Assembly (NCBI GenBank): GCA_001942185.1
Contig: MKJV01000123.1
Location: 62,001 to 126,000, forward strand
DNA length: 64,000 nucleotides
DNA from: Pseudonocardia sp. CNS-004
GTDB lineage: Bacteria; Actinomycetota; Actinomycetes; Mycobacteriales; Pseudonocardiaceae
Direction: 5' to 3'
Shown here: positions 48,583 through 62,983 of the stretch, piece by piece
How positions within the stretch are numbered: position 1 is the first letter of the stretch
Layout: the number at the start of each line of letters is the position of its first letter
Notes under the pieces: generated by a model
What the model saw: the letters and a program-made list of their open reading frames with translations, nothing else
Database searches by the model: none
What the model was told of the DNA's origin: nothing
Made by a program: the position numbers and the translations under genes

Positions 48583-48684
48583 CCGACTGGGCGCGGCGGC
48601 GTGGCAAGAAGTTCTGGTGCGTCTACCGATCGTCTGGTTGGTTGAAGGGGTCACGCGACGGCATTGTCGATCGGAGGTAGGGCG

Positions 48685-49513
48685 ATGGGGCGAGTTGACG
48701 GGAAGGTCGCTTTGATCACGGGGGCGGCGCGGAGCCAAGGCCGCTCACACGCGGTGCGGCTCGCGGCGGAGGGTGCCGACATCATCGCGATCGACGCCTG
48801 TGCTCCGATCGCCGCGGCGCCGATCCCGATGTCCACGACCGACGACCTGGCCGAGACCGCCCGGCTGGTCGAGGACCTGGACCGGCGCGTGGTCACCTGG
48901 CGGGCCGATGTCCGGGACACCGCGGGCCTGCAGGCCGCGGTGGAGGCCGGGCTCGCCGAGCTCGGCCACATCGACATCGTGTGCGCGAACGCGGGGATCT
49001 TCCCGACCGCATCCCTCATGGACACCACCGACGAGGTGTGGTCCGAAGTCATCGACGTCAATCTCACCGGGGTCTTCAAGACGATCCGGGCGGTGGCTCC
49101 ATCGATGATCGAGCGGGGGGAGGGAGTCGATCATCATCACCAGTTCGTCGGCCGGCATCAAGGGCGTGCCGAACACCGCGCCCTACACCTCCTCCAAGCA
49201 CGGGGTGGTCGGGCTGATGCGCACGCTCGCCAACGAGTTGGCCCCGCACCGGATCCGGGTGAACACCGTGCACCCCACCGGGGTCGACACGATCATGATC
49301 CAGAACGAGCCGACCTACCGTCTGCTGCTGCCCGACGCCGACGCTCCTACTCGGGAGCAGGCCATTCCGATCTTCCAGGCGATGAACGCGCTGCCGGTGC
49401 CCTGGGTGGAGGTGGCCGACGTCAGCAACGCGATCCTGTTCCTCGCCTCCGACGAGTCCCGCTACGTCACCGGCTCGATGCTTCCGGTCGACGCGGGGAT
49501 GACGCAGAAGTGA
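48685..49513 (+). CDS. Mycofactocin-type SDR oxidoreductase (one frameshift)
   Basis: This short-chain dehydrogenase of about 275 residues has GKVALITGAARSQGRSHAVR (nucleotide-binding TGxxxGxG), an insert between beta2 and the next helix (DLAETARLVEDLDRRVVTW) typical of the mycofactocin-coupled subgroup, NAGI, the catalytic Ser-Tyr-Lys in ITSSAGGIKG and YTSSKHG, and ILFLASDESRYVTGSMLPVD. The frame changes near 49125 and is repaired by removing one base (or adding two). ATG 48685 follows GGAGG. Members hold tightly bound NAD and use mycofactocin as electron acceptor. Confidence 0.82.
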
Positions 49514-49546
49514 GTGCATCGACGGGTCCACCCGTCCGTCGCCCTA

Positions 49547-49562
49547 CCAAACGATTGTCTGG
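49547..49562. promoter_or_regulatory. Shared operator, copy 1 (acyl-CoA dehydrogenase)
   Basis: CCAAACGATTGTCTGG lies 18 bases before the acyl-CoA dehydrogenase start. It fits CCAWAC-N4-GTNTGG, the element repeated at 51649, 54216 and 56559. A TATTCT (49568-49573) follows closely, suggesting a near-leaderless transcript. Confidence 0.6.
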
Positions 49563-49579
49563 GCGGCTATTCTCCCGGC

Positions 49580-50742
49580 ATGGACTTCGAGCTCACCGAG
49601 CAGCAGGAGCTGTTCCGTAGGACGGTCCGCGACTGGGTGGACCACGAGGCGCCCAAGGAATGGGCCAGAGAGCTGGAGAAGGACGAGCACGCGTTCCCGC
49701 ACGCGCTGTGGGACAAGTTCACCGAGGCCGGCTTCCACGGCATCGGGCTGCCCGAGGAGTACGGCGGGCAGGGCGGGGACATCCTCACCCAGATGATCCT
49801 TGCCCGCGGGCTCGCGCGGTCGCTGGCCGGCTTGACCTGGGTCTGGGGCATCACGTCCTTCGCCGGCGGGAAGTCGGTCGGCCTCTACGGCTCCGATGAG
49901 CAGAAGCGCAAGCACCTCACCGCCATCGCCGAGGGCCGCGAGAAGTGGGCGATCGGCTTCACCGAGCCCGGCGGCGGCACCGACCTGCTCGGCGGCATGC
50001 GCACCAAGGCCACCAAGGTCGAGGGGGGCTGGGTCGTCAACGGGCAGAAGACGTGGAGCTCGATGTCCCACGTGGCCGACTACATCCTGCTGCTCGCCCG
50101 CACCAGCGAGTACACCGAGAAGCGCCACCAAGGGGTGTCGCTGTTCATCCTGCCCACGAACGGCGAGGGGGTGACGATCCGCGACATCCCCAAGGTCGGG
50201 ATGCGCTCGCTGGGGTCCTGTGACGTCTACCTCGACAACGTGTTCATCCCGGAGGAGAACCTCCTCGGGGAGGAGAACCGGGCCTGGTACATGCTGCTGC
50301 CGACGCTGAACAACGAGCGGATCATGCTCTCCTCGTTCTGCGTCGGGATCATGGACGGCATCCTCGAGGATGCGCTGCGCTACGTCCGGGAGCGCGAGGC
50401 CTTCGGTGGTCCGATCGGGCGGTTCCAGGCGCTGCAGCACCACATCGCCAACATCGCGATGTGGCGGGACCAGGCCGAGTTGATGGTCAACCGGGCCGCA
50501 TGGCTGCAGTCGCTCGGCCGGCCGTGCGGGCAGGAGGCGAACATGGCCAAGGTGGTGGCCTCCGAGCTCGCGGCCAGGCTGCGGACCTGGGCATGCAGAT
50601 CCTCGGCGGAATGGGCTACTCGGCCGAGACCGACATGCAGCGGTACTGGCGCGACGTCCGGCTGTTCCGCATCGGGCCGGTGACCAACGAGATGGCTCGA
50701 AACGGCATCGCGGAGGGCCTCGGCCTGCCACGGTCCTTCTGA
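49580..50742 (+). CDS. Acyl-CoA dehydrogenase (one frameshift)
   Basis: This flavoprotein of about 387 residues has the N-terminal start MDFELTEQQELFRRTVRDWV, the FAD region WAIGFTEPGGGTDLLGGMRT, GQKTWSSMSHVADYILLLAR, NNERIMLSS, GGPIGRFQALQHHIANIAMW, and ILGGMGYSAETDMQRYWRD. One base is missing near 50580. At the C-terminus the usual I-x-EGT is replaced by IGPVTNEMARN, so the catalytic Glu at that position is absent, as in a subset of actinobacterial relatives. It desaturates an acyl-CoA made by the ligase at 51687. Confidence 0.85.
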
Positions 50743-51190
50743 TGACGGGAACGGTCGACCACCCGCCGGCTGGTCTCGTCGGCAGCCGGTGCCCGGCGGC
50801 CGGTACACCCTCGCGGGTTACGAGAGCTGGCTCGGGCACGACGCGCTGTACTCCGAACCGGAGGAGCGTCCGCACCCGGTGATGGCGTTCGTCGCCGCGC
50901 AGCGAGGCCTCGGGGTCACCGTCGCCGAGCTCTTCCGCATGTGGGGCACCGAGATGTCGGACGGGCCGATGCTCACGGAGTCCACGCTGGAGTTCCCCGG
51001 GGAGTTCCGCGCCGACACCGAGTACGACGTGCGGGGCACGGTCACCTCCGTGGTCCGCAAGTCCGGCCGCACGCTCGGCGTCTTCGACCTCGTGACCGCC
51101 CGGTTCGAGGTCGTCGAGCCGGGTGGGGATACGCCCGTCGCCGTCGTGACCAACACCTACGCCCTGCCCCGGCGGGAGGCGACGGAATGA
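50742..51190 (+). CDS. MaoC-like hydratase subunit, FAS1-type hotdog (one frameshift)
   Basis: This hotdog-fold protein of about 149 residues has GRYTLAGYESWLGHDALYSE and LFRMWGTEMSDGPMLTESTLEF near the N-terminus and GVFDLVTARFEVVEPGGDTP towards the end. One base is missing near 50788. It resembles the non-catalytic half of split MaoC enoyl-CoA hydratases. ATG 50742 overlaps the dehydrogenase stop (TGATG), and its own stop overlaps the next gene (ATGA). Confidence 0.65.
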
Positions 51191-51600
51191 GCGCAGACGA
51201 GATCCTCCCGGAGTGGGCTCTCGCCGAGGTCGACCCGGAGAAGATGAAGGTGCTGGCGCTGCTGCTCGCCGACCCCAACCCCCTTCACTTCGACCCGGCT
51301 GTCGCCCCGCGCCTCGGGGTGGCCGAGCGCCCGGTGAACCAGGGGCCGTCCAACATGGCGATGCTCGTGAACCTGCTGCGCGCCGCCTACCCCAGGGGTC
51401 GGCTCCGGCGGCTGACGGTTCAGCTACGGGGCAGCGTGGTCGCAGGCCAGAGCGTGCGGGCCACCGGCCGCGTGACCGGCCGGGAGCGGCAGGGCGCCAC
51501 GGAGACGGTGCGCTGCGAGGTCGCCCTCGAGGTGGACGGAGGGCGGCTGGTCCTGTCGGGCGAGGCCGAGGTCGAGGTCCCGGTCGTGGCTTCCGGCTGA
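51187..51600 (+). CDS. MaoC-like enoyl-CoA hydratase, catalytic half
   Basis: This intact 137-residue hotdog protein contains LLADPNPLHFDPAVAPRLGV, which matches the hydratase-2 motif with the catalytic Asp and His, and ERPVNQGPSNMAML. It most likely pairs with the preceding small protein to hydrate the enoyl-CoA made by the dehydrogenase. The two genes overlap by four bases. Confidence 0.75.
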   Translation: MSADEILPEWALAEVDPEKMKVLALLLADPNPLHFDPAVAPRLGVAERPVNQGPSNMAMLVNLLRAAYPRGRLRRLTVQLRGSVVAGQSVRATGRVTGRERQGATETVRCEVALEVDGGRLVLSGEAEVEVPVVASG

Positions 51601-51648
51601 CTGCTGCTGGATCCCGGTGGGTCTGCTCGTGGCCGTTGTAGAGCCCGA

Positions 51649-51664
51649 CCAAACGATTGTATGG
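51649..51664. promoter_or_regulatory. Shared operator, copy 2 (acyl-CoA ligase)
   Basis: CCAAACGATTGTATGG is a full match to CCAWAC-N4-GTWTGG. It lies 22 bases before the ATG at 51687; the embedded TATGGT may serve as part of a -10 box. Confidence 0.65.
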
Positions 51665-51686
51665 TACTTTGTCCAGGAGGTGTGTC

Positions 51687-53330
51687 ATGGGTGACACCGT
51701 TCTCACGGTTCCTGCGCTGATCGAGCGGGCCGCCCGGCTGCAACCCGACAACGACGCTTTCGTGTTCCCCGAGGTGCGGCAGACCTATCGTGAGCTGGAG
51801 GCCTCCGCGCTGGCGGTGGCCCGCTCGCTGACCGCGTCGGGGATCGGCCGGGGCGACGCGGTCGGAACCCTGATGCCCAACTGCCTGCAGTTCGTCCACG
51901 CGATGGTGGGTGCAGCGATGGTCGGAGCGACGTTCGTTCCGATCAACGCGCGGCTGGCCCCCCGTGAGGTCGCCTACGTCGTGCGCGACTCGGGCATGCG
52001 GCTGCTCTTCACCACGGACGTGGTCGACGAGTACGTCGACTACGTCGGCCGGCTGCACCAGGCCTTCCCCGAGCTGGCCGCCGCCGTGGCCGGCGCGACC
52101 CCCGCGGTGGTCGATGCCCCGCGGCTCGAGCGCGCGGTCCTGCTCGGGTCGCGATCAGCGGGCGGGTTCTGGGCGGAGGCCGAATTCCTCGCGCTGGGCC
52201 GCGCCGTGGACGAGGAGACCGTCCGGGCGGCGGCCGTCGACGTCGCCCCCGACACGCCGTACATCATGATGTACACCTCCGGGACCACCGCGGAGCCGAA
52301 GGGCTGCCCGCTGACGCACGAGTCGGTGGTGCGGCTGGGCGCCGCGGTCGGCGAGGAGGCGTTCCGCATCCAGGCGTCCGACCGGATGTGGAACCCGCTG
52401 CCGATGTTCCACGTCAGCGCCCAGGCGCCGATGATCGGTGTCCTGAACGCGGGGGCGTGCTACGTCTCGATGACGCACTTCGAGGCGGGCGCGGCCCTCT
52501 CGCTCATCGAGCGGGAGCAGGCCACCTTGATGTGGCCGGCCTACCCGACGCTCACCGGGCCGCTGCTCGCCCACCCCGACTACGGTCCGGACCGCTTCCG
52601 GCGCGTCCGTGGCCTGCTGACGGTCGGCCCGCCCGACCTGCTGCGGGGCTTCCAGCAGCAGCTGCCGCACACCCGGCACGTGAGCTGTTACGGCTCCACC
52701 GAGTTGGGCGGCGTCGCCGTGATGGGCCGGCTCGACGACCCGCTCGAGGAGCGCCTGACCTGCGGAAAGCCGTTCACCGGGGTGGAGGTGCTGGTACGTG
52801 ACCCCACGACGGACGAGCCTGCGGCGACGGGGGAGACCGGCGTGCTGTACGTGCGCGGGTTCAACCTCTTCCTCGGCTACCACGACGACGCGGCGAAGAC
52901 CGCGGCCGCGATCGACGCCGACGGTTGGTTCTTCACCGGCGACCTCGCCTCGATCGACGGGAACGGCAACCTGACCTTCCGCGGGCGGACCAAGGACATG
53001 CTCAAGGTCGGCGGTGAGAACGTGGGGTGCCTCGAGGTGGAGTCCTACCTCGTGCGGCATCCCGACATCCAGCTCGCCGCGGTCGTCGGGGTGCCGGACC
53101 CGCTGTACGACGAGGTGCCGGCGGCCTTCGTCGAGCTGCGGGAGGGCGCGGCCCTCACCGAGGGCGAGGTGATCGAGTACTGCCGCCGGGGACTCGCGAA
53201 GTACAAGGTGCCGCGCCACGTCCGATTCACCACCGAGTGGCCGATGTCGGCCACCAAGGTCCAGAAGTTCCGGTTGCGGGACCGGCTGGTCGCCGAGTTG
53301 GAGTCGGGGGGTGCGCCCGCGACGGTCTGA
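51687..53330 (+). CDS. AMP-dependent acyl-CoA synthetase/ligase
   Basis: This intact 547-residue ANL-superfamily enzyme has the P-loop YTSGTTAEPKGCPLTHES, A5 motif CYGSTELGG, DGWFFTGDLASIDGNGNL and GRTKDMLKVGGENVG, and the C-terminal Lys region MSATKVQKFRLRDRL (Lys in KVQKF). It activates a carboxylic acid to its CoA thioester for the dehydrogenase and hydratase genes. I chose ATG 51687 with AGGAGGTG upstream over an earlier in-frame start that would lie inside the operator. Confidence 0.88.
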   Translation: MGDTVLTVPALIERAARLQPDNDAFVFPEVRQTYRELEASALAVARSLTASGIGRGDAVGTLMPNCLQFVHAMVGAAMVGATFVPINARLAPREVAYVVRDSGMRLLFTTDVVDEYVDYVGRLHQAFPELAAAVAGATPAVVDAPRLERAVLLGSRSAGGFWAEAEFLALGRAVDEETVRAAAVDVAPDTPYIMMYTSGTTAEPKGCPLTHESVVRLGAAVGEEAFRIQASDRMWNPLPMFHVSAQAPMIGVLNAGACYVSMTHFEAGAALSLIEREQATLMWPAYPTLTGPLLAHPDYGPDRFRRVRGLLTVGPPDLLRGFQQQLPHTRHVSCYGSTELGGVAVMGRLDDPLEERLTCGKPFTGVEVLVRDPTTDEPAATGETGVLYVRGFNLFLGYHDDAAKTAAAIDADGWFFTGDLASIDGNGNLTFRGRTKDMLKVGGENVGCLEVESYLVRHPDIQLAAVVGVPDPLYDEVPAAFVELREGAALTEGEVIEYCRRGLAKYKVPRHVRFTTEWPMSATKVQKFRLRDRLVAELESGGAPATV

Positions 53331-53385
53331 CGGTGCCCGACCCCGCCGTGGGGCCGGCGGTCGAGTCCTGGCAACTCCGCCTCGT

Positions 53386-54207
53386 TCACACCGAGGTCGC
53401 GCCGAGGTCGACGGGAAGTGCGATCCCGGTGACCGTGCGCGACTCGTCCGAGGCCAGCCACAGCACGGCGTCGGCGATGTCGCGCGGTGCTGCGACCTTC
53501 GGCTCGCCCAGCACCTGGCCGAACGACGCGAGGTAGTCCGGGTGTGCGCGCAGCACCCCGACCAGCACCTCGTCGTGCGCCATCGCCGTCTCCACCGCCC
53601 ACGGGTGCACCGAGTTGGCCCGGATGCCGTAGGGGGCGAGTTCGAGGGCGGCCGTGCGGGTGAGGCCCACCACGCCGTGCTTGGCGGCGCTGTAGTGCGC
53701 TTGGGCGGGCAGCGACTTCAGGCCCGCGACGGAGCTGATCGTCACGATCGACCCACCGTTGCCGGCGTCGATCATCACGGGGATCGTGGCCTTCAGCGTG
53801 TGCCACACCCCGGTGAGGTTGGTGTCGAGCACCGCGCGCCACTGTTCCGCGGTGATCTCCCACAGGCGGCCCCACGCGCTGATTCCGGCGTTGGCGACGA
53901 CGACGTCGAGCCGGCCGAAGGCTCGGACCCCGTCGGCGACGACGGCCGACACGTCCTCGAGCGACCGCACATCGGCCCGACCCGCGACGACGCGGGCACC
54001 GGCCCGCTCGGCGAGACGAACCGTCTCGTCCAGCTCGCCGGTGGTCGCCGACGGGTAGCCCAGTTCGGTCACGGCGGCGCAGACGTCGAGGAGTACGAGA
54101 TCGGCACCTTCTTCGGCCAGTCGGAGTGCGTGCGCGCGGCCCTGCCCCCGGGCCGCGCCCGTCACGAGAGCCACCTTGTCGCACACGCGTCCGAGTCGGC
54201 CGTTCAT
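53386..54207 (-). CDS. Mycofactocin-type SDR oxidoreductase
   Basis: This intact 273-residue SDR has DKVALVTGAARGQGRAHALR, the subgroup insert ELDETVRLAERAGARVVA, NAGI, TISSVAGLKSLPAQAHYSAAKHG with the catalytic Tyr and Lys, and VLWLASDESRTVTGIALPVD. It is a paralogue of the SDR at 48685. I chose ATG 54207; the shared operator ends 9 bases upstream, so the transcript is probably leaderless or nearly so. It converges on the ligase gene. Confidence 0.85.
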   Translation of the reverse strand: MNGRLGRVCDKVALVTGAARGQGRAHALRLAEEGADLVLLDVCAAVTELGYPSATTGELDETVRLAERAGARVVAGRADVRSLEDVSAVVADGVRAFGRLDVVVANAGISAWGRLWEITAEQWRAVLDTNLTGVWHTLKATIPVMIDAGNGGSIVTISSVAGLKSLPAQAHYSAAKHGVVGLTRTAALELAPYGIRANSVHPWAVETAMAHDEVLVGVLRAHPDYLASFGQVLGEPKVAAPRDIADAVLWLASDESRTVTGIALPVDLGATSV

Positions 54208-54215
54208 GCTCCCAA

Positions 54216-54231
54216 CCATACGGTAGATTGG
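54216..54231. promoter_or_regulatory. Shared operator, copy 3 (SDR, minus strand)
   Basis: CCATACGGTAGATTGG fits the shared pattern with one mismatch in the right arm; on the minus strand it reads CCAATCTACCGTATGG, close to the copy at 56559. It lies directly upstream of the SDR start at 54207. Confidence 0.55.
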
Positions 54232-54259
54232 GCAGCTTCCTCCGGGCGGCCGTTCTTGC

Positions 54260-56481
54260 TCAGCGAGTGGTGGGGGCGAGCGTCACCGGCACGCCGGTGA
54301 AGTACGGCGTGCCGGTCAGCGGTTCGCAGGCGAGGTCGTCGGTGAGGTCGTTGACGTTCACCCCGGGCTCGGCGACGGCCGCGCTCAGCCGCAGGTCGCC
54401 GCCGTCGTGGCCCCAGCCGTGTGGGAGGGAGACGACGCCGGGTGGGACGCCGTCCGTGATCTCGACCTCGGCCTCGACCTCGGCCGTCGGCGACCGCACC
54501 ACGGCGCGCCCCGCGTCGGACAGGCCCGCGGTCGTGGCGTCCGCCGGGTTGACCTGCAGCGTGCAGCGGCCGGAGCGGGTGAGTGGCAGCGCGTTGTGCA
54601 GCCACGAGTTCATGCCGCGCATCTGCCGGCGACCACCAGGACGAGGTCCGGCCGGGGAGCGGACAGGCCGGCGCGCAGACGCTCCACGTCGGTGACGATC
54701 AGCGACGGCGCCAGGTCGATGCGCCCGGTCGGCGTCCGCAGCGCGCCGGGCAGGCGGGGTCGCAGCGGTCCCAGGTCGATCCCGTCGGGGGCGGCGAGGA
54801 GACGGTCGAGGGTGAGTCCGTCCGGTTCGTCCCCGAAGCGGTCGCCGTAGGGGCCCGCGCGCAGCGCGATGTCGAGCAGGCGCTCGGCCCCGGTGCGCGG
54901 GGCCACCGCGGCGAGCGCGATCACCGGATCGGCAGACGCGCGGCGGGCCGCCCGATGCGCGAGTGCGTCGTCAGCAGCGCGGAGGTCGGGACGCGGGCCG
55001 GTGCCGGCGGCGATCGACGCCAGCCGCAGCATGATCTCGTCCTCGCCGAGCTCGCCCGGGGCGCGGGCGAGCAGGGGAGGGGAGTAGCGGGCGGCGTTGC
55101 GCACGGCGGTCTGGTTGATGACGAGGTCGAAGTGGCCGCGGGTTGCCAGTCGGGGCGCGGGGAGGATCACGTCGGCGTGTCGCGTGGTCTCGTTGAGGTA
55201 GCTGTCGACGCTGACCATGAAGTCCAGCCTGCCGAGCGCCTGCTCGAGCCGGGTGCTGTTCGGGGCGGAGCGGGCCGGGTTCCCGCCGAAGGTGATCAAC
55301 GCCCGGACCCGGCCCTCGCCGCCGGTGTCAATCTCCTCGGCGAGGCAGGCCAGCGGCAGTTCGCCCTGCAGCTCCGGCGCCTTCCGGACCCGGCTCGTCC
55401 AGCGGCCGTGCGGCCATCCGGCGCCCGTCGCCGGGCGGGTGGTCGCCGACCCGGCCGGGGGTAACGCGAACATGGCCCCGCCTTCGCGGTCGAGGTTGCC
55501 GGTGACGACGTTGAGCACGTCGACGAGCCAGCTGCAGAGCGTCCCGAACTCCTGGGTGGTGGTGCCGATGCGTGCGTGGACCGCGGCCCGCTCCGCGCGG
55601 GCCAGGTCCCGGGCGAGGCGGCGGATGACGTCGGCCGGGATGTCGCACCGGTCGGCGACGGCTTCGGGTGGGAACCCGGCGGCCAGCTCGAGAACGGTGT
55701 CGAGGCCGTCGACGAGGCCGTCCACGGCGCGGAGCCGGACCAGGTCGTCCTCGGCGATCACCGCGACCATGGCGAGCAGCAGGTAGGCGTCGGCGCCGGG
55801 CCGGATCGGGATGTGCTCGTCGGCGGCAGCGGCGGTCCGGGTCCGGACCGGGTCGACGACCACGAGGCGCCCGCCGCGGCGGCGCAGCGCCCGCAGCCGG
55901 TGTGGCAGGCCGGGTGCGGACATCGTGCTGCCGTTGGAGACCAGGAGGTTGGAGCCGAGCACCAGCAGGTGGTCGGTCCGGTCGATGTCCGGGACGGCGA
56001 TTCCGAATCCGGTGCCGAACATGAGCCCGGTGGCCAGGTGCTTGGGCATCGAGTCGACCGACGCGGCGCTGAAGAGGTTGCGGGTGCGGAGTGCCGACAG
56101 CAGTGCCGGGCCGTAGAGCTGCAGGTCGAGGTTGTGTCCGTACGGGTTGCCGAGGTAGACCGCGCACGCGTTGCTGCCGTGCGCTGCGAGAAGCGGCGGC
56201 AGCGCCCTGTCGACGGCCGCGAACGCGTCGTGCCAGGACACTTCTCGCCAACCGCCGCCGTCGCGGACCAGTGGCGTGCGCAGCCGGTCGGGATCGGCGT
56301 CGAGGCTCGCCAGCGCCAAGCCCTTCGGGCAGGCGTACCCATGGCTGAACACGTCGCGCGGGTTCGGGCGGACGGCGGTGATCCGCTCGCCGTCCACGGT
56401 GACGTCCAGCCCGCAGCAGGCCTCGCAGAGCGGGCAGATGCGGGTGGCGGTGCCGGACGGGGCCGTGCGTGATGCGGTCAC
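54260..56481 (-). CDS. Molybdopterin-dependent oxidoreductase (one frameshift)
   Basis: This DMSO-reductase-family enzyme of about 740 residues has the N-terminal 4Fe-4S motif CPLCEACCGLDV with a later YACPKGLA. The molybdopterin domain (YLGNPYGHNLDLQLYGPALL, LVLGSNLLVSNGSTM, VDPVRTRTAAAADEHIPIRP, ITFGGNPARSAPNSTRL) is followed by the C-terminal dinucleotide-binding beta-barrel (MNSWLHNALPLTRSG, SLPHGWGHDGGD). One base is missing near 54616, just before that last domain. GTG 56481 has GAGGAG upstream. It is a soluble single-subunit form, perhaps an oxidoreductase of the pathway; the substrate is unknown. Confidence 0.82.
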
Positions 56482-56558
56482 GTCTCACTCCTCGACGGCG
56501 TGGTCACGTTGCACCGGATGACTCCTTGACAGTCCTGGTCGTGGGCATCAGGCTCTGC

Positions 56559-56574
56559 CCAAACTACCGTATGG
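56559..56574. promoter_or_regulatory. Shared operator, copy 4 (binding protein/oxidoreductase divergence)
   Basis: CCAAACTACCGTATGG fully matches CCAWAC-N4-GTWTGG. It lies in the 116-base divergent region between the molybdopterin enzyme (minus) and the importer operon (plus), so one site could control both. Confidence 0.65.
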
Positions 56575-56597
56575 TTGTCAGTGTCAGGAGGCCCGTT

Positions 56598-57749
56598 GTG
56601 AGGAAGCCGGGGAGCATCGTCGCTCTCGCCTCGCTCGTCGCTCTCGCCCTCGCCGGCTGTGGCGGGGGCTCGTCCACCGGTGCGGCGCAGGAGGCGGGCG
56701 GGACGCCCACCGTCGTCACCGCGACCATGCTCGCCGACCTGACCGGCGGGGCCGCGTTCTGCGGCGTGGCCGCTCGCACCGGCGCCGAGACCGCGGTCAA
56801 GAAGATCAACGAGGAACGAATGCTCGGGGCGACCACCCTCGAGCTCGCCGTCGAGGACACCGCCACCGATCCCCGCCAGGCCGCCTCGTTGATGAGCCGG
56901 GTCGCCGGAGGTGACTCGCAGGCCATGCTGTTCGGCTGCGCCAGCCAGGTCGCACAGGCCATCGCGCCGGTCGCCCAGGACGAGGGCATCCCGCTCGTGG
57001 CGATGCAGTCCGGCTCCGACGGCGTGCTCGACGCCGGCGAGTACCTCTTCCGGTCGACCGCGCCGCAGGCCAGCTACCAGGACATCGTCGTGGATCAGCT
57101 CGTCGAGCAGGGCGTGCGGTCCGCGGCGGTCGTCTACCAGGCGGAGAATCCCACGCTGGTCGAGCTCGCCGAGGACACCTACCCGCCGCTGTTCGCATCG
57201 GCGGGGATCTCGATCGTGGCAAGCGAGAAGTTCCAGGGCACCGGGTTCGACTTCGCCGCGCTGACCTCGAGCGTCGCCGGCCGCTCGCCGGACGTCGTGG
57301 TCATGCTGGGCCAGGGCACGCCGAACGTCACGGTCATCACCCAGCTCCGGCAGGCCGGCTTCACGGGCCCGGTGGTCGGGTCCGCGAGCTTCTCCGCCGA
57401 TGTGCTCGCGCCGCTCGGTGGGCAGGCGAACGGCGCTCTGTGGGCCTCGGACTTCAACGTCGCCGGCACCGCGCCGTCCACCCAGGAGTTCGTCTCCTAC
57501 TTCCGCAGCGTCAACGGGTCCGATCCGTCGCAGTTCGCCGCGCAGGCGTGGGACGCGGTCATGCTGCTGGCCGCGGGGATCGAGGCGGCCGAGACCGTCG
57601 ACCGCGAGGGGGTGCGGGCCGGGCTGGAGACGGCCGCGGCCCGTGGGTTCGACGGAGCGGTCGGCCCGGTCACGTTCGAAGGCCGGGACGCGCGCGTCGG
57701 CGGGGTGCTCGTGTCCTGGCAGGACGGTCGTGAGCAGCTCGTCGGCTGA
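56598..57749 (+). CDS. Branched-chain-amino-acid-type ABC substrate-binding lipoprotein
   Basis: This intact 383-residue type-I binding protein of the LivJ/aliphatic-amide family has a signal peptide with lipobox LAGC near residue 20. Domain landmarks are AVKKINEERMLGATTLELAV, GIPLVAMQSGSDGVLDAGEY and LRQAGFTGPVVGSASF. GTG 56598 follows AGGAGG. LIV-type importers often carry aromatic or aliphatic acids in catabolic clusters, so the likely ligand is the acid activated by the ligase. Confidence 0.88.
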   Translation: MRKPGSIVALASLVALALAGCGGGSSTGAAQEAGGTPTVVTATMLADLTGGAAFCGVAARTGAETAVKKINEERMLGATTLELAVEDTATDPRQAASLMSRVAGGDSQAMLFGCASQVAQAIAPVAQDEGIPLVAMQSGSDGVLDAGEYLFRSTAPQASYQDIVVDQLVEQGVRSAAVVYQAENPTLVELAEDTYPPLFASAGISIVASEKFQGTGFDFAALTSSVAGRSPDVVVMLGQGTPNVTVITQLRQAGFTGPVVGSASFSADVLAPLGGQANGALWASDFNVAGTAPSTQEFVSYFRSVNGSDPSQFAAQAWDAVMLLAAGIEAAETVDREGVRAGLETAAARGFDGAVGPVTFEGRDARVGGVLVSWQDGREQLVG

Positions 57750-57785
57750 GATGCGCCGCCCCGAACCGGCTCCGAGGAGGATGCG

Positions 57786-58680
57786 ATGCTCGCCCAACTG
57801 ACCAACGCCGTCGTGCTGGGAAGTCTCTACCTGCTCTTCGCCCTGGGGCTCACGCTGTGCTGGGGCGTGCTCGACGTGCTCAACCTCGCCCACGGGTCGA
57901 TCTTCATGTTCGGCGCGTTCGGGGTGTACCTGGTGATCCGCGAGTCCGGTGTGGTGCTCCCGCTCGTGCTGCTGACGGTGCTCGCGTCGGCGATCGGCGC
58001 TGTGCTGTCGGTGCTGTTGCAGGTGCTCGTGTTCCGCCCGCTGCGCCGACGCGCGGAGACGGGCGGGACCGGGGAGCTCGGTGTGCTGATCGCCAGCATC
58101 GGGGCCGGGCTGATCCCGGTGGCCCTGGCACTGAACCTCGCCGACGCCGAGGTGGTGAACCTTCCGGGTGAGGTCGCGCAGAGCACGGTGCACGAGCTCG
58201 GGCCGGTCCGGATCACGAGCCTGCAGGTGGCGATCGTCGTCCTCGCGGTGGGCTTGACCGCCGTTCTGGCCGTCTGGATCGCGCGGACCGGACGGGGCGG
58301 GCCCTGCGCACCATCGCCCACCAACCGCACACCGCCGAACTGCTCGGAATCCCGGTCGCGCGGCTCTCCGCCGTGACGATGGCGATCAGCGGCGCTCTGG
58401 CGGGCGGCAGCGGGCTGCTGCTCGCCGCCAACGCGAATGCGATCGACCCGCACATGGGCGACGGCCTGCTGCTCAAGCGTTCGCCGTCATCGTGCTCGGT
58501 GGTGTCGGCAGCATCATCGGCGCTGCGGTCGGCGCGTTCGTCCTGGCGTTCACGGAGACGTTCGCCGTCGCCTACGTCTCCGGGGAGGCCCGCGACATCC
58601 TCGCGTTCGGCCTCATCCTGGCGGTGCTCGTGCTGCGGCCCCAGGGGTTGGTCCGGCGAGCGTCGGGGCAGCGGGCATGA
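57786..58680 (+). CDS. ABC permease, LivH-like (two frameshifts)
   Basis: This permease of about 298 residues has the LivH start LTNAVVLGSLYLLFALGLTL and LNLAHGSIFMFGAFGVY. Its EAA-type loop is RTIAHQPHTAELLGIPVARL, and it ends VAYVSGEARDILAFGLILAV. One base is missing near 58299 and one near 58480. The restored stop overlaps the next ATG (ATGA), supporting the correction. Confidence 0.82.
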
Positions 58681-59552
58681 TCGGGTGGTTCACGTCGAAC
58701 GAGACGTTCCTGCTGACCGCCCTCGCCTATTACCTCGTCGGGCTGAGCTTCCAGGTCGTGTTGCGCAGCGGGGTCTTCTCGCTCGCCGCCGCGGGTTTCT
58801 GGGGTATCGGGGCCTACACGAGCGCGCTGCTGTCCGAGTCACTCGGCTGGGCCGTCGCGGTGGTCCTCGCCCTCGTCCTCGCCGGGGCACCGGCCCTCGG
58901 GCTCGCCGCGGTCGTCGCCCGGCTGCGCGGGCTCTACCTGGGCATGGCGACGATCGCCTTCGACCTGCTCGTGGTCTCCCTGGCCTACGGCTGGGACTCG
59001 CTGACCGGCGGCGCGCTCGGCCTGTTCGGGATTCCTCGCTCGGCAACCCTGCTCTCGGTCGGCGGGCTCGCCGTGGTGGCGACGTTCGTGGTGGCGATGC
59101 TGCAGTCCCGGGCCGGCGGGCGCTTCGTCGACGCCCTGCGAACGGACGAGACACTCGCCCGTTCACTCGGGATCGAGACCGGCCGCCTGCGGGCCGCGAC
59201 GATCGTGCTCAGCGGTGTGCTCGGCGCGCTCGCGGGCGCTGTCACCCCATTGATCTTCGGCGTGCTGGGGCCGGAGGAGAGCGGGTTCCCGCTGGTCGTT
59301 CTCGGGTTGACGATCGTCGTGATCGGCGGGTCGGGCTCCTGGGCCGGCCCGGCGATCGGGGCTGTGGTGGTCACCGCGCTGCCCGAGGTGCTGCGCGGCG
59401 TCGACGAGTGGCGCGACGTCGTCTACGGCGCGCTGATCGTCCTGATGGTGATCTTCGCACCGTCGGGGCTGCTCGGCCTTGCCCGGTCGGGACGCCACGG
59501 GCTGCGACGCCGTGTGGTGCGAGCGCCGGTCACGGAAGGAACGGGCCGGTGA
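58677..59552 (+). CDS. ABC permease, LivM-like
   Basis: This intact 291-residue permease has LLTALAYYLVGLSFQVVLRS at the N-terminus, the cytoplasmic loop ALRTDETLARSLGIETGRLR, and GLTIVVIGGSGSWAGPAIGA, all typical of LivM. It overlaps both neighbours by four bases (ATGA and GTGA). Confidence 0.88.
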   Translation: MIGWFTSNETFLLTALAYYLVGLSFQVVLRSGVFSLAAAGFWGIGAYTSALLSESLGWAVAVVLALVLAGAPALGLAAVVARLRGLYLGMATIAFDLLVVSLAYGWDSLTGGALGLFGIPRSATLLSVGGLAVVATFVVAMLQSRAGGRFVDALRTDETLARSLGIETGRLRAATIVLSGVLGALAGAVTPLIFGVLGPEESGFPLVVLGLTIVVIGGSGSWAGPAIGAVVVTALPEVLRGVDEWRDVVYGALIVLMVIFAPSGLLGLARSGRHGLRRRVVRAPVTEGTGR

Positions 59553-60358
59553 CCGACGCGCTCGTGTGCGACGACGTCGAAGTGCACTTCGGCGGGGTGA
59601 AGGCCGTCGACGGCGTCTCCATCACCGTCGCCCCGGGGAGCCTGTGCGGGCTCGTCGGCCCGAACGGCTCCGGCAAGACCACCCTGCTCAACGCGGTGTC
59701 GGGGCTCGTCCCGCTCACCGCGGGGCGGATCACGGCGCACGGCGAGGCCTTGGCGGGCCGCCCGGTGCCGCAGATCGCGCGGCGGGGGGTGCGCCGGACG
59801 TTCCAGGCGATCCGGCTGCTGTCCACGCTGACGGTCGTCGAGAACGTGGCGCTCGGCGCCGACGACGGGCGCCGGTTGTTCGACGGCCTGCTGCGACCCC
59901 GGCGGTCGGCGCGCGCCGACCACCGGTCACGGGAGCTGGCCCGGGACGCCCTGGAACGCGTCGGGTTGTCCGACGTGGGAGACCGGCTGCCCGGGGAGCT
60001 GCCCTACGGCCACCAGCGCCGGGTCGAGATCGCCCGAGCGCTGGCGGCCCGTCCGCGTCTGCTGCTGCTCGACGAGCCCGTGGCCGGGATGTCGGTGGAG
60101 GAGCGGCGGGAGATCGCCGACCTGTTGCTCGAGCTGAAGGCCGAGGGGCTCACCCAGGTCCTCGTCGAGCACGACCTGGAGTTGGTCACGCGGATCACCG
60201 ACCACCTGGTCGTCGTGGACTTCGGGCGTGTCATCGCCGACGGGGACCCCGACGAGACGGTGCGCAACGAGGACGTACGGGAGGCATACCTTGGCCGGCG
60301 ACACGACGCTGCGGGTCCGCGGTCTCACGGTGCGGTACGGGCGGCTGACGGCGGTTGA
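59549..60358 (+). CDS. ABC ATPase, LivG-like
   Basis: This 269-residue ATPase has Walker A GPNGSGKTT, Q-loop TFQAIRLLSTLTVVENVALG, signature LPYGHQRRVEIARAL, Walker B LLLLDEPVAGMS and VLVEHDLELV. The LivG-type C-terminus is followed by about 20 atypical residues where it overlaps the LivF start, so a missed indel near the end is possible. Confidence 0.87.
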   Translation: MTDALVCDDVEVHFGGVKAVDGVSITVAPGSLCGLVGPNGSGKTTLLNAVSGLVPLTAGRITAHGEALAGRPVPQIARRGVRRTFQAIRLLSTLTVVENVALGADDGRRLFDGLLRPRRSARADHRSRELARDALERVGLSDVGDRLPGELPYGHQRRVEIARALAARPRLLLLDEPVAGMSVEERREIADLLLELKAEGLTQVLVEHDLELVTRITDHLVVVDFGRVIADGDPDETVRNEDVREAYLGRRHDAAGPRSHGAVRAADGG

Positions 60359-61012
60359 CGGAATCGACCTCGACGTCGCCGCGGCCGTATCCACGTCGTG
60401 CTCGGCGCCAACGGCGCGGGCAAGAGTTCCGCGCTGCGCGGGATCTGCGGCAGCGTGGGCCCCGCCGCCGGGACCGTCGAGCTCGGCGGGCGCGACCTGA
60501 GCGGCCGGCCGGCATGGCGGGCGGCACGGGCCGGGCTGGTGCTGGTGCCGGAGGGGCGCGAGATCGTCGCCCCGCTGACGGTCGAGGAGAACCTGCTGGT
60601 CGGCGGGTACCCGAACCGGTCGGCGAGCCGCCGGCGCCGCACACTGGATGAGGTCTACACGATGTTCCCGGTGCTCGCGGGGCGGCGTGGCTCACCGGGT
60701 GGCCTGCTGTCCGGCGGCGAGCAGCAGATGCTCGCCTTCGGCCGGGCGCTCATGGCCGACCCGGCGGCGGTCCTGCTCGACGAGCCCTCGATGGGGCTGG
60801 CGCCGGTGATGGTCGAACGGGTCCTCGGGGCCGTCCGGGGGATTGCCGACCGCGGCATCGCGGTGCTGATGGTGGAGCAGAACGCGACCGCGCTCGGGCT
60901 CGCCGCCGACGCCTCGGTGATGGAGCGCGGCAAGCTCGTGCTCGGCGGGCCGGCGGCGGACGTCGTGGACGACCCTCGGGTCACGCAGGCGTTCCTGGGG
61001 GTCGCCTCGTGA
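60291..61012 (+). CDS. ABC ATPase, LivF-like (one frameshift)
   Basis: This second ATPase has about 240 residues: LRVRGLTVRYGRLTAVDGID, Walker A GANGAGKSS, VPEGREIVAPLTVEENLLVG (the LivF-type Q-loop region), signature LSGGEQQMLAFGRALM, and Walker B AVLLDEPSMGLAP. One base is missing near 60390. I chose TTG 60291 because GGGAGG lies 6 bases upstream. It completes the five-gene LIV importer. Confidence 0.82.
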
Positions 61013-61050
61013 ACGGCATCTCGACCATCCGACGACATGAAAGGTCATCC

Positions 61051-62018
61051 ATGCGTGCCGCGGTCGCCACGAAGATCTCCGCCGAGGACCCGGTTGCGGG
61101 GGTCGAGATCGTTGACGTTCCCGAGCCCGAGGCCGGTCCGGGTCAGGTTCTCGTGACGGTCAGGGCCGTCTCGCTCAACCACCACGACCTGTGGACCCTG
61201 CGCGGGGTCGGCGTCACCGAGGAACGCCTGCCCGTGGTGCTGGGCTCGGATGTCGCGGGCGTCACCGCGGACGGGCGCGAGGTCGTCGTGCACTCCCTCG
61301 TGGCAGATCCGGAGCGGGGCGGCGGGGACGAGCTCCTCGACCCGCGCCGCGGGATGCTCGCGGACGCGGTGCAGGGCGGGCTCGCGACCACGGTCGCCGT
61401 ACCGGCCCGCAACCTGGTCGACAAGCCGGCCTCGCTGTCGTTCGAGGAGGCCGCCTGCATGCCCACCGCCTGGCTGACCGCGTACCGGATGCTGTTCGTC
61501 CGTGGCGCCGCCCGCCCCGGGCAGACCGTCCTGGTCCAGGGTGCGGGCGGCGGGGTCGCCACTGCGGCGGTCACGCTGGCGACCGCGGCAGGTCTCCGGG
61601 CCTGGGTCACCGGGCGCAGCCCCGAGAAGCGCGAGAAGGCCCGGGCCCTCGGCGCGGACGCGTCTTCGAGACGGGTGCGCGGCTGCCCGAGCGGGTGGAC
61701 GTCGTGATCGACACCGTCGGCCACGCGACGTGGGAGCATTCGGTGCGCTCCGTCCGCCCGGGCGGGACGGTCGTCGTCGCGGGTGCCACGGCCGGTTCGG
61801 TGGTGAAGACCGACCTGTTCCGGCTGTTCCTGCAGCACATCACGGTGTGCGGCTCGGCGATGGGCAGGCGCGAGGAACTCGTCGACCTGCTGGCACTGTG
61901 CGACGCCCGCGGGGTGCGCCCGCAGATCGACTCCGTGCACCCGTTGGAGGACGCCGTGGGGGCGTTCGAGCGGCTCGCCTCGGGCCAGGCGTTCGGCAAG
62001 GTGCTCGTCACGCCGTGA
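61051..62018 (+). CDS. Quinone oxidoreductase-like MDR protein (one frameshift)
   Basis: This medium-chain reductase of about 322 residues has LNHHDLWTLRGVG, the nucleotide loop VLVQGAGGGVATAAVTLATA, GRSPEKREKARALGAD and VDVVIDTVGHATWEHSVRSV. It has no structural-zinc Cys cluster, so it is zinc-independent (QOR type). One base is missing near 61665. I chose ATG 61051 with GAAAGG upstream; GTG 61009 overlapping the LivF stop is the alternative. It probably reduces an enone or enoyl intermediate with NADPH. Confidence 0.8.
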
Positions 62019-62983
62019 ACCTCCCACGTCTCGGGCTCTACCTCGACCTGCGCAACCCCGACGGATCTCGGTCGACCACGGATGTCTACCGCCGATCGTT
62101 AGAGCGGGTCGAGTACGGCGAGCGGCACGCGCTCGGCGCGGTGTGGACCACGGAGCACCACGCCTCGCCCGACGGCTACCTGCCCGCGCCGCTGACCGCC
62201 CTCGCCGCGGTGGCCGCCCGGACGTCGCAGGTGCGGCTGGGGACCGCGGTGGCGCTGGCGCCGCTGCGGCATCCGATCACGCTCGCCGAGGAGGCCGCGG
62301 TCGTGGATGTGCTCAGCGGGGGTCGGCTCGAGCTCGGACTGGGTGCGGGCTGGAGGCGGTCGGAGTTCGACGCGTTCGGCGCGGACTTCGACGCGCGGTA
62401 CCGGACCACCGAGCGGGTGCTGCGTGAGCTCCCGGAGATCTGGGCGAGTGGGCGGGCGACCCCACGCCCCGTGCAGGACCCGGTCCCGCTCTGGTGGGGC
62501 GCCCGCGGTCCGATCGGGGCGCGCCGCGCCGGGCGTCTCGGGATCGGGCTGCTGTGGCTCGACCGGGACCTGTGGGAGCCGTACGCGGAAGGGCTCGCCG
62601 AGGGTGGTCACCACGTCGCCGCGGCCCGCATGGGTGGGTTGGTCAACGTATTCCTCGCCGACGACCCGGATCGCGCCCGCGCACTCATCACCCCGCACGC
62701 CAGGGCAGCCCGCGGCGCGACCTACCGCGGAGCACAGACGCCCGGCCGGCCGTCCTCGCTGCCCCGGCTGCAGTTCCGCACCCCGGAGGACGCCGCCGCC
62801 GACGTGGCCGGGCGGATCCGCGGCCTGCCGGTCACCGACGTCTTCTGCTTCGACCGGATCGGCGGGGCGCCGGAGGAACTGTGCGACCGCCACGTCGAAC
62901 TGCTCTGCGGGGCGTTCCGGACCGCGCTCGCGCGGGATCCGCGGCCAGGAAATCGACCCACTGTTAGGTTGGGCGGGTGGTGA
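62015..62983 (+). CDS. LLM-class flavin-dependent oxidoreductase
   Basis: This intact 322-residue luciferase-like protein is shorter than those at 8.5-16 kb and belongs to a different branch: VWTTEHHASPDGYLPAPLTA, VRLGTAVALAPLRHPITLAE, ELGLGAGWRRSEFDAFG and PLWWGARGPIGARRAGRLG. It could use FMN or F420. GTG 62015 overlaps the reductase stop (GTGA). Confidence 0.82.
   Translation: MNLPRLGLYLDLRNPDGSRSTTDVYRRSLERVEYGERHALGAVWTTEHHASPDGYLPAPLTALAAVAARTSQVRLGTAVALAPLRHPITLAEEAAVVDVLSGGRLELGLGAGWRRSEFDAFGADFDARYRTTERVLRELPEIWASGRATPRPVQDPVPLWWGARGPIGARRAGRLGIGLLWLDRDLWEPYAEGLAEGGHHVAAARMGGLVNVFLADDPDRARALITPHARAARGATYRGAQTPGRPSSLPRLQFRTPEDAAADVAGRIRGLPVTDVFCFDRIGGAPEELCDRHVELLCGAFRTALARDPRPGNRPTVRLGGW

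Follow-up and report, generated by a model that had tools for sequence, protein, structure and literature searches.

A 16-bp inverted repeat, CCAAAC-N4-GTMTGG, lies at four promoters of a gene cluster in Pseudonocardia sp. CNS-004, and we consider it very probable that it is the operator of a TetR-family repressor encoded at the end of that cluster. The window is the whole 64,000-nucleotide stretch analyzed, positions 62,001 to 126,000 of contig MKJV01000123.1 (C123 of genome G000), and coordinates without a contig name refer to it. The putative repressor, encoded at 62977, is termed P0001. A P0001 dimer would block RNA polymerase at these promoters and be released by an acyl-coenzyme A (acyl-CoA), with uptake, activation and first oxidation of a substrate being induced together. 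An earlier note on this DNA had proposed that a shared operator defines a TetR regulon; comparative sequence evidence (a matrix scan of other genomes, a promoter footprint, an exact match in a second genus and linkage to the regulator gene) strongly supports that proposal.

The four 16-mers that the earlier note had placed at the starts of an acyl-CoA dehydrogenase, an acyl-CoA ligase, a short-chain dehydrogenase/reductase (SDR) and an ATP-binding cassette (ABC) importer were all found there, 8–23 bases from the start codons. Operator 1, CCAAACGATTGTCTGG (49547–49562, plus strand), is predicted from a block conserved in nine genomes and lies 17 bases from the dehydrogenase start (49580). Operators 2 to 4 are predicted from pattern and matrix matches: CCAAACGATTGTATGG (51649–51664, plus strand) lies 22 bases before the ligase (51687), CCAATCTACCGTATGG (54216–54231, minus strand) 8 bases before the SDR (54207, minus strand), and CCAAACTACCGTATGG (56559–56574, plus strand) 23 bases before the importer binding protein (56598). 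Operator 4 is identical in P. kunmingensis (G021), and CCAAACTATCGTATGG lies upstream of the SDR homologue in genome G026. In most cases the 16-bp site follows GCCCTA or a GCC-type flank. Gene starts are the output of a simple purpose-made caller.

Because the pattern was drawn from these four sites, genome-wide figures are descriptive, and the decisive tests are out-of-sample: the matrix in other genomes, the dehydrogenase footprint, and an exact match in another genus. All three were positive. A search of the 61 other Pseudonocardia genomes detected orthologues of P0001 (74–96% identity) in nine. Half of the 20 matches in a named collection had at least 70% identity (nine Pseudonocardia and one Actinomycetospora), and the other ten, from other groups, had 24–41%. 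In a family-wide sample of 346 genomes, nine matched P0001 at E 1e-60, the window's own included. The loci read were eight of the nine in Pseudonocardia (all but G016, which has the same matches as G015) and that of Actinomycetospora (L103). A dehydrogenase orthologue with the site upstream lay no more than about 11 kb from the TetR gene in all eight Pseudonocardia loci. Since relatives keep the same site beside the same regulator gene, the repeat is very likely the P0001 binding site.

Using a matrix derived solely from the four window sites, we scanned 348,236 bases in nine segments from eight other genomes, G000 and G021 being excluded. Eight segments were picked for their TetR orthologue. 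An exact match was the reason for including the ninth (G022:C285); its match is therefore no prediction, and 11 of the 12 top matches are free of that choice. All 12 lay upstream of genes of the system: the dehydrogenase in seven of seven Pseudonocardia, the SDR, the importer and a quinone-reductase-like gene in G026, an alcohol dehydrogenase in G022, and the ligase in L103 (genes in L103 and G022:C285 were placed by tblastn). The match at rank 13 (15.8 bits) was inside a gene, and rank 14 fell at the G026 TetR promoter. Over the nine segments, the reversed control yielded no match above 12 bits. Fifty shuffles in 2-base blocks, which are not a strict dinucleotide model, gave a mean of 1.36 matches above 15 bits (maximum 5, top score 22.5) vs. 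13 real matches, five of which exceeded 26 bits. When a P0001-type matrix was built without G000 and G021, the four window sites ranked 1, 2, 3 and 5 on the 190-kb contig, operator 1 being the best.

To obtain the footprint, nine Pseudonocardia dehydrogenase promoters, that of the window included, were aligned on the site. Mean pairwise identity was 0.91 within the 16-mer, but 0.31 upstream and 0.39 downstream. The GCCCTA occupying the six bases before the 16-mer was invariant across the nine promoters. In L103 the exact match CCAAACGACCGTATGG, the sole match within two mismatches in 20.6 kb, heads a run consisting of ligase, dehydrogenase, two MaoC-type genes and the TetR orthologue. Exact matches were present in 7 of 62 genomes of the genus, namely 4 of 10 with P0001 vs. 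3 of 52 others (p 0.01), and thus separate P0001 genomes modestly.

P0001 (62977–63627, plus strand) carries an N-terminal TetR helix-turn-helix domain (PF00440, 53.9 bits vs. a cut-off of 24) and a C-terminal PF17932 domain (TetR_C_24, 112.9 bits), and its helical model resembles TetR structures. The helix-turn-helix segment (residues 41–66) was invariant in eight aligned sequences, and a palindromic operator at the promoters of linked genes, as is typical of the TetR family, was found in silico. Seventeen NCBIfam models matched P0001, none at its curated cut-off, and P0001 did not qualify as any curated TetR equivalog (FadR, KstR, FasR, AcuR, MftR and others). The closest PDB relatives by sequence were 3dcf, AibR, PfmR, 2ibd and KstR2. 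AibR of Myxococcus xanthus is the second best (5k7f) and was solved with isovaleryl-CoA and operator DNA. A structure search with the P0001 model returned largely the same relatives, including this AibR complex and, lower down, FadR carrying stearoyl- or lauroyl-CoA. These relatives support, but do not show, an acyl-CoA as the ligand of P0001.

The arrangement at the TetR gene itself varied. A weak operator-like site, CCCACTGTTAGGTTGG (62957–62972, plus strand; 14.1 bits, the eighth best on 190 kb), lies at its promoter in the window, where CTGTTAGGTTGGGCGGGTG is kept in G021, G026 and G054. In the same three genomes TAGGTT is kept six bases before the TetR GTG start (window 62965–62979), a position at which a leaderless TetR transcript is possible. 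In G059, G015 and G020 the TetR gene is directly 3′ of the ligase within the dehydrogenase operon, so that the dehydrogenase operator would also mediate autoregulation.

We infer the promoter positions from a permissive search. The P0001 dimer would sit on the two arms at each promoter and block RNA polymerase. At the dehydrogenase, TANNNT occurs exactly 5 bases 3′ of the 16-mer in nine of nine promoters, TATTCT (49568–49573, plus strand) is the likely −10 box, and the operator would therefore take the place expected for the −35 region and spacer, with P0001 between the −35 region and the −10 box. At the importer, a likely promoter, TTGACA-N17-CAGGCT (56526–56554, plus strand), is identical in G021 and reads TTGACG-N17-TAGCGT in G026; it lies directly upstream of the operator, which would thus place P0001 over the presumed transcription start. 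At the ligase and the SDR, P0001 would possibly lie over the −10 box. An acyl-CoA, most simply the thioester product of the regulated ligase, would bind the C-terminal domain and release P0001, and release would lead to joint induction of uptake, activation and the first β-oxidation-like steps.

The suggestion that the TATGGT embedded in three of the four sites may double as a −10 box held for some promoters only. It is ruled out at the dehydrogenase, where the site reads TCTGGG and the separate TANNNT follows, and is disfavored at the importer, given the TTGACA/TTGACG-N17 promoter upstream of the operator in three of three genomes examined. It is possible at the ligase, where TTGTAG or TTGTGG-N18-TATGGT (G000 and G021) would put the −10 box within the operator, and at the SDR, where TATGGT lies 7 bases before the ATG, a spacing compatible with a leaderless transcript. 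In the permissive search, the SDR promoters of G000 and G026 lacked a TTG-type −35, as did the quinone-reductase-like gene of G026.

Several points weigh against assigning the sites to P0001. A paralogue, TetR2, is encoded at C123:135899, ∼10 kb downstream of P0001, to which it is about 50% identical (47–54%). It was found (E <1e-50) in 10 of 10 P0001 genomes of the genus, the window's included, and in 8 of 52 others (Fisher p 4e-7, uncorrected for descent), so that presence and absence cannot separate the two regulators and the distinction falls to linkage and matrix scores. The recognition helix, LKGSLYxYI, is nearly identical in both proteins, the half-site CCAAAC is shared, and operators 1 and 2 still scored 20–22 bits with a TetR2 matrix. 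TetR2 as the main regulator of the four promoters, or binding by both proteins, is nevertheless quite unlikely. The two matrices were made from 13 P0001-type and 23 TetR2-type hand-chosen sites, the latter from eight genomes with TetR2 and without P0001, in which the block CTACCAAAC is repeated, both at the TetR2 promoter and at other points within the surrounding 20 kb. Excluded from the P0001-type list were every site of G000 and G021, G015 (being the same as G059), and weaker matches near the G022 and G026 TetR genes; the TetR2-type list leaves out chance-looking matches. Operators 1 to 4 scored 35.0, 30.5, 24.5 and 30.7 bits with the P0001 matrix vs. 21.6, 20.0, 8.7 and 6.9 bits with the TetR2 matrix, each matrix flattering its own class. 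All four sites thus favor P0001, and the SDR and importer sites are poor for TetR2. P0001 and TetR2 are on separate contigs in seven of nine other Pseudonocardia genomes, and likewise in Actinomycetospora, and are at least 1.3 Mb apart in G026 (12 kb apart only in G021), and the sites track P0001.

The genome-wide counts also speak against the P0001 operator. With one mismatch allowed, the whole genome (9,203,094 bases) held seven matches vs. six for the reversed pattern, and eight other Pseudonocardia genomes held 37 vs. 31 in the control; with a similar background across 62 genomes of the genus, genome-wide over-representation was discarded as an uninformative test. A refined pattern gave five exact matches in 9.2 Mb, all inside 29 kb on C123, but these sites had served to tune it, the five include the TetR2-type carboxylase site, and with one mismatch its totals were not above the control. 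Further points against are two mismatches in the G020 dehydrogenase site, the weakness of the site at the TetR promoter of G000, and the two mismatches of the site preceding the TetR gene in G026 and G054. The P0001 model has a middling mean predicted local distance difference test score (pLDDT, 74.5), and orthologous sites are not independent of descent. The genome-wide motif scan proposed as a check in the earlier note thus gave a split outcome: the total was at random frequency, but the positions were not, since four of the seven one-mismatch matches fell within these 7,028 bases (0.005 expected); 12 of the 37 in the other genomes fell in P0001 loci. In the window, two mismatches gave five matches vs. 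1.62 expected, a count reached by 3 of 100 shuffles and weak if taken alone. Such a mild excess, with a genome total equal to the control, is what four unrelated promoters alike by chance would give; this explanation is extremely unlikely, being contradicted by the out-of-sample prediction, the footprint and the cross-genus exact match. It is very unlikely that the motif serves not as an operator but as a core-promoter element, be it a −10 box like TATGGT or a site for an alternative sigma factor. TATGGT in three of four sites and the TTGTAG or TTGTGG-N18 spacing at the ligase would fit such an element, but conservation covers a 16-bp inverted repeat, a separate TANNNT is present at all nine dehydrogenase promoters, a likely promoter lies upstream of the importer site in all three genomes, and exact matches are too rare in the genus for a general promoter element. 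The P0001 operator is therefore the reading that we retain.

Other one-mismatch matches of the genome lie outside the cluster. The fifth is 38 kb further on C123, before a P450-like gene (by eye). The remaining two are a tandem of CCATACGACCGTATGT and TCATACGACTGTATGG, with starts 18 bases apart, at L003:1501–1534 (G000:C67:36624–36657), directly before another TetR-like gene (by eye), and are probably the own operator of that gene.

TetR2 has candidate sites of its own. C123:135694, 140178, 153442 and 156360, before the TetR2 gene and carboxylase, flavoprotein-like and P450-like genes (the last two by eye), scored higher for TetR2. Actinomycetospora also has a TetR2, 73% identical to that of G021. 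The weaker relative of the motif that the earlier note had counted in, CCGATCGTCTGGTTGG (48626–48641, plus strand) before the SDR at 48685, does carry the right arm GTCTGG at 48632–48637 and is conserved in P. kunmingensis; its membership in the P0001 set is doubtful, because it scored 19.8 bits with the TetR2 matrix vs. 12.6 bits with the P0001 matrix and is more likely TetR2's. The block CCAACCARACGATCGGYAG is common to C123:129463–129482 and window 48623–48641, before a hydrolase/Baeyer–Villiger monooxygenase (BVMO)-like unit (C123:129393) and the SDR at 48685, and has the same letters before the former unit in P. kunmingensis; it is possibly a further operator variant. The SDR operator is mixed: it pairs a GTATGG arm with CCAATC, an arm variant that TetR2-type sites use as well. 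Two paralogous TetR proteins with a shared half-site CCAAAC and different partner arms might split one catabolic region, with mixed operators read by both or by a heterodimer that would integrate two acyl-CoA signals at one 16-bp site; we consider this unlikely.

The cluster reads, in order, SDR (48685), acyl-CoA dehydrogenase, two MaoC-like genes, acyl-CoA ligase, second SDR, molybdopterin oxidoreductase, ABC importer, alcohol-dehydrogenase-like gene, luciferase-like monooxygenase (LLM)-like gene (by inspection) and TetR gene. The dehydrogenase (49580–50742, plus strand; PF02771, PF02770 and PF00441, all from the first part only) is frame-split near 50575 in G000, where it occupies two frames, and is a single called gene of 387 residues in P. 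kunmingensis. A probable MaoC-like hydratase (50743–51190, plus strand), homologous to G021 gene 153192 and named from its neighbor, is apparently frame-split at its start near 50785 (by eye); the second (51187–51600, plus strand) matches PF01575. The ligase (51687–53330, plus strand) is of the AMP-binding type (PF00501, PF13193), and the SDR (53386–54207, minus strand; PF13561) belongs to the mycofactocin-coupled subfamily (TIGR03971, 356 bits vs. a cut-off of 300). Downstream of the importer binding protein (56598–57749, plus strand; PF13458) are permeases and ATPases of the branched-chain amino acid type by layout (57786–61012, plus strand; gene calls and frame check, named from translation), the first permease being frame-split. 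They are followed by a frame-split zinc-type alcohol dehydrogenase/quinone reductase-like gene (61051–62018, plus strand; from a scan of its G021 homologue) and a probable LLM-type oxidoreductase (62015–62983, plus strand; a gene call named by inspection).

Where an importer/molybdoenzyme unit had been proposed as a target, the importer part stands. The molybdopterin oxidoreductase (54260–56481, minus strand; PF00384 and PF04879, both from the first part; frame-split near 54610) is unproven as a target and lacks support of its own, because G021 has no called gene between ligase and importer and yet keeps the importer operator.

Among 49 called P. kunmingensis genes compared with C123, 46 had a match of >75% identity, and 16 of these were spread over two or three frames, a lower bound because short shifted ends escape detection. 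The SDR at 48685, the dehydrogenase, a permease and the alcohol dehydrogenase are among the frame-split genes (window 48685–62018 and beyond on C123). The splits look like uncorrected assembly indels, and some may reflect pseudogenes. At L070:5950–13307 (G015), a set divergent from the dehydrogenase operon comprises a molybdopterin/NADH-dehydrogenase-like complex, a halogenase/PhyH-like oxygenase and a carnitine acyltransferase-family gene; by gene sizes it is also present in G059 and G020, and it is unusual company for a P0001-type regulator. The cluster as a whole probably serves uptake and breakdown of an organic acid, and the BVMO-like flavoprotein, esterase, carboxylase, MaoC and mycofactocin-coupled SDRs may point to a substrate that is a cyclic ketone, terpenoid or branched acid.

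The system resembles known TetR circuits. KstR2 of Mycobacterium and Rhodococcus cholesterol catabolism is a TetR repressor of a local catabolic regulon, as proposed for P0001, with three motif-bearing promoter regions near its gene and the motif 22–82 bp from the starts of repressed genes (PMC3068626). The proteins are related by sequence (4w97, E 3.2e-24; the helix-turn-helix shares TTxxDIAD and GSLYH), but the KstR2 motif is the 14-bp AnCAAGnnCTTGnT, whereas P0001 sites have CCAAAC/GTMTGG arms and a 4-base center, and the target genes differ; CAAGnnCTTG, of the KstR2 operator, was in none of the four window sites. BkaR of mycobacteria represses a local, autoregulated regulon through the 16-bp core GTTA(N)T(N4)A(N)TAAC (PMC3920632), which shares length, two arms and a 4-base center with the P0001 sites and differs in arm letters and genes. 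The layout of a local regulon with a palindromic operator near the gene starts is common to all three. PfmR (TTHB023) of Thermus thermophilus, close to P0001 in sequence and fold (3vpr), has an operator of similar build, the 16-bp palindrome (a/c)Y(g/t)A(A/C)YGryCR(g/t)T(c/a)R(g/t), and it offers a precedent for operator sharing, since PfmR sites tested from two promoter regions were also bound by another TetR protein, SbtR (PMC7022988). The window sites fit the PfmR consensus at only 11–12 of 16 positions, and 3.4% of random GC-rich 16-mers reach 11, so the likeness is a lead and not identity. No title on this operator or regulon was among the literature matches listed.

The P0001 system, then, is real and well conserved, its mechanism is ordinary, and it is most likely a new example of familiar TetR control as in KstR2, BkaR, AibR and PfmR. 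It offers (i) a testable predicted operator, regulator and gene set in culturable Pseudonocardia, such as P. kunmingensis DSM 45301; (ii) a handle on the catabolic pathway; and (iii) in the paralogue pair with its shared half-site, which is the most interesting part, a compact natural case of TetR operator divergence after duplication.

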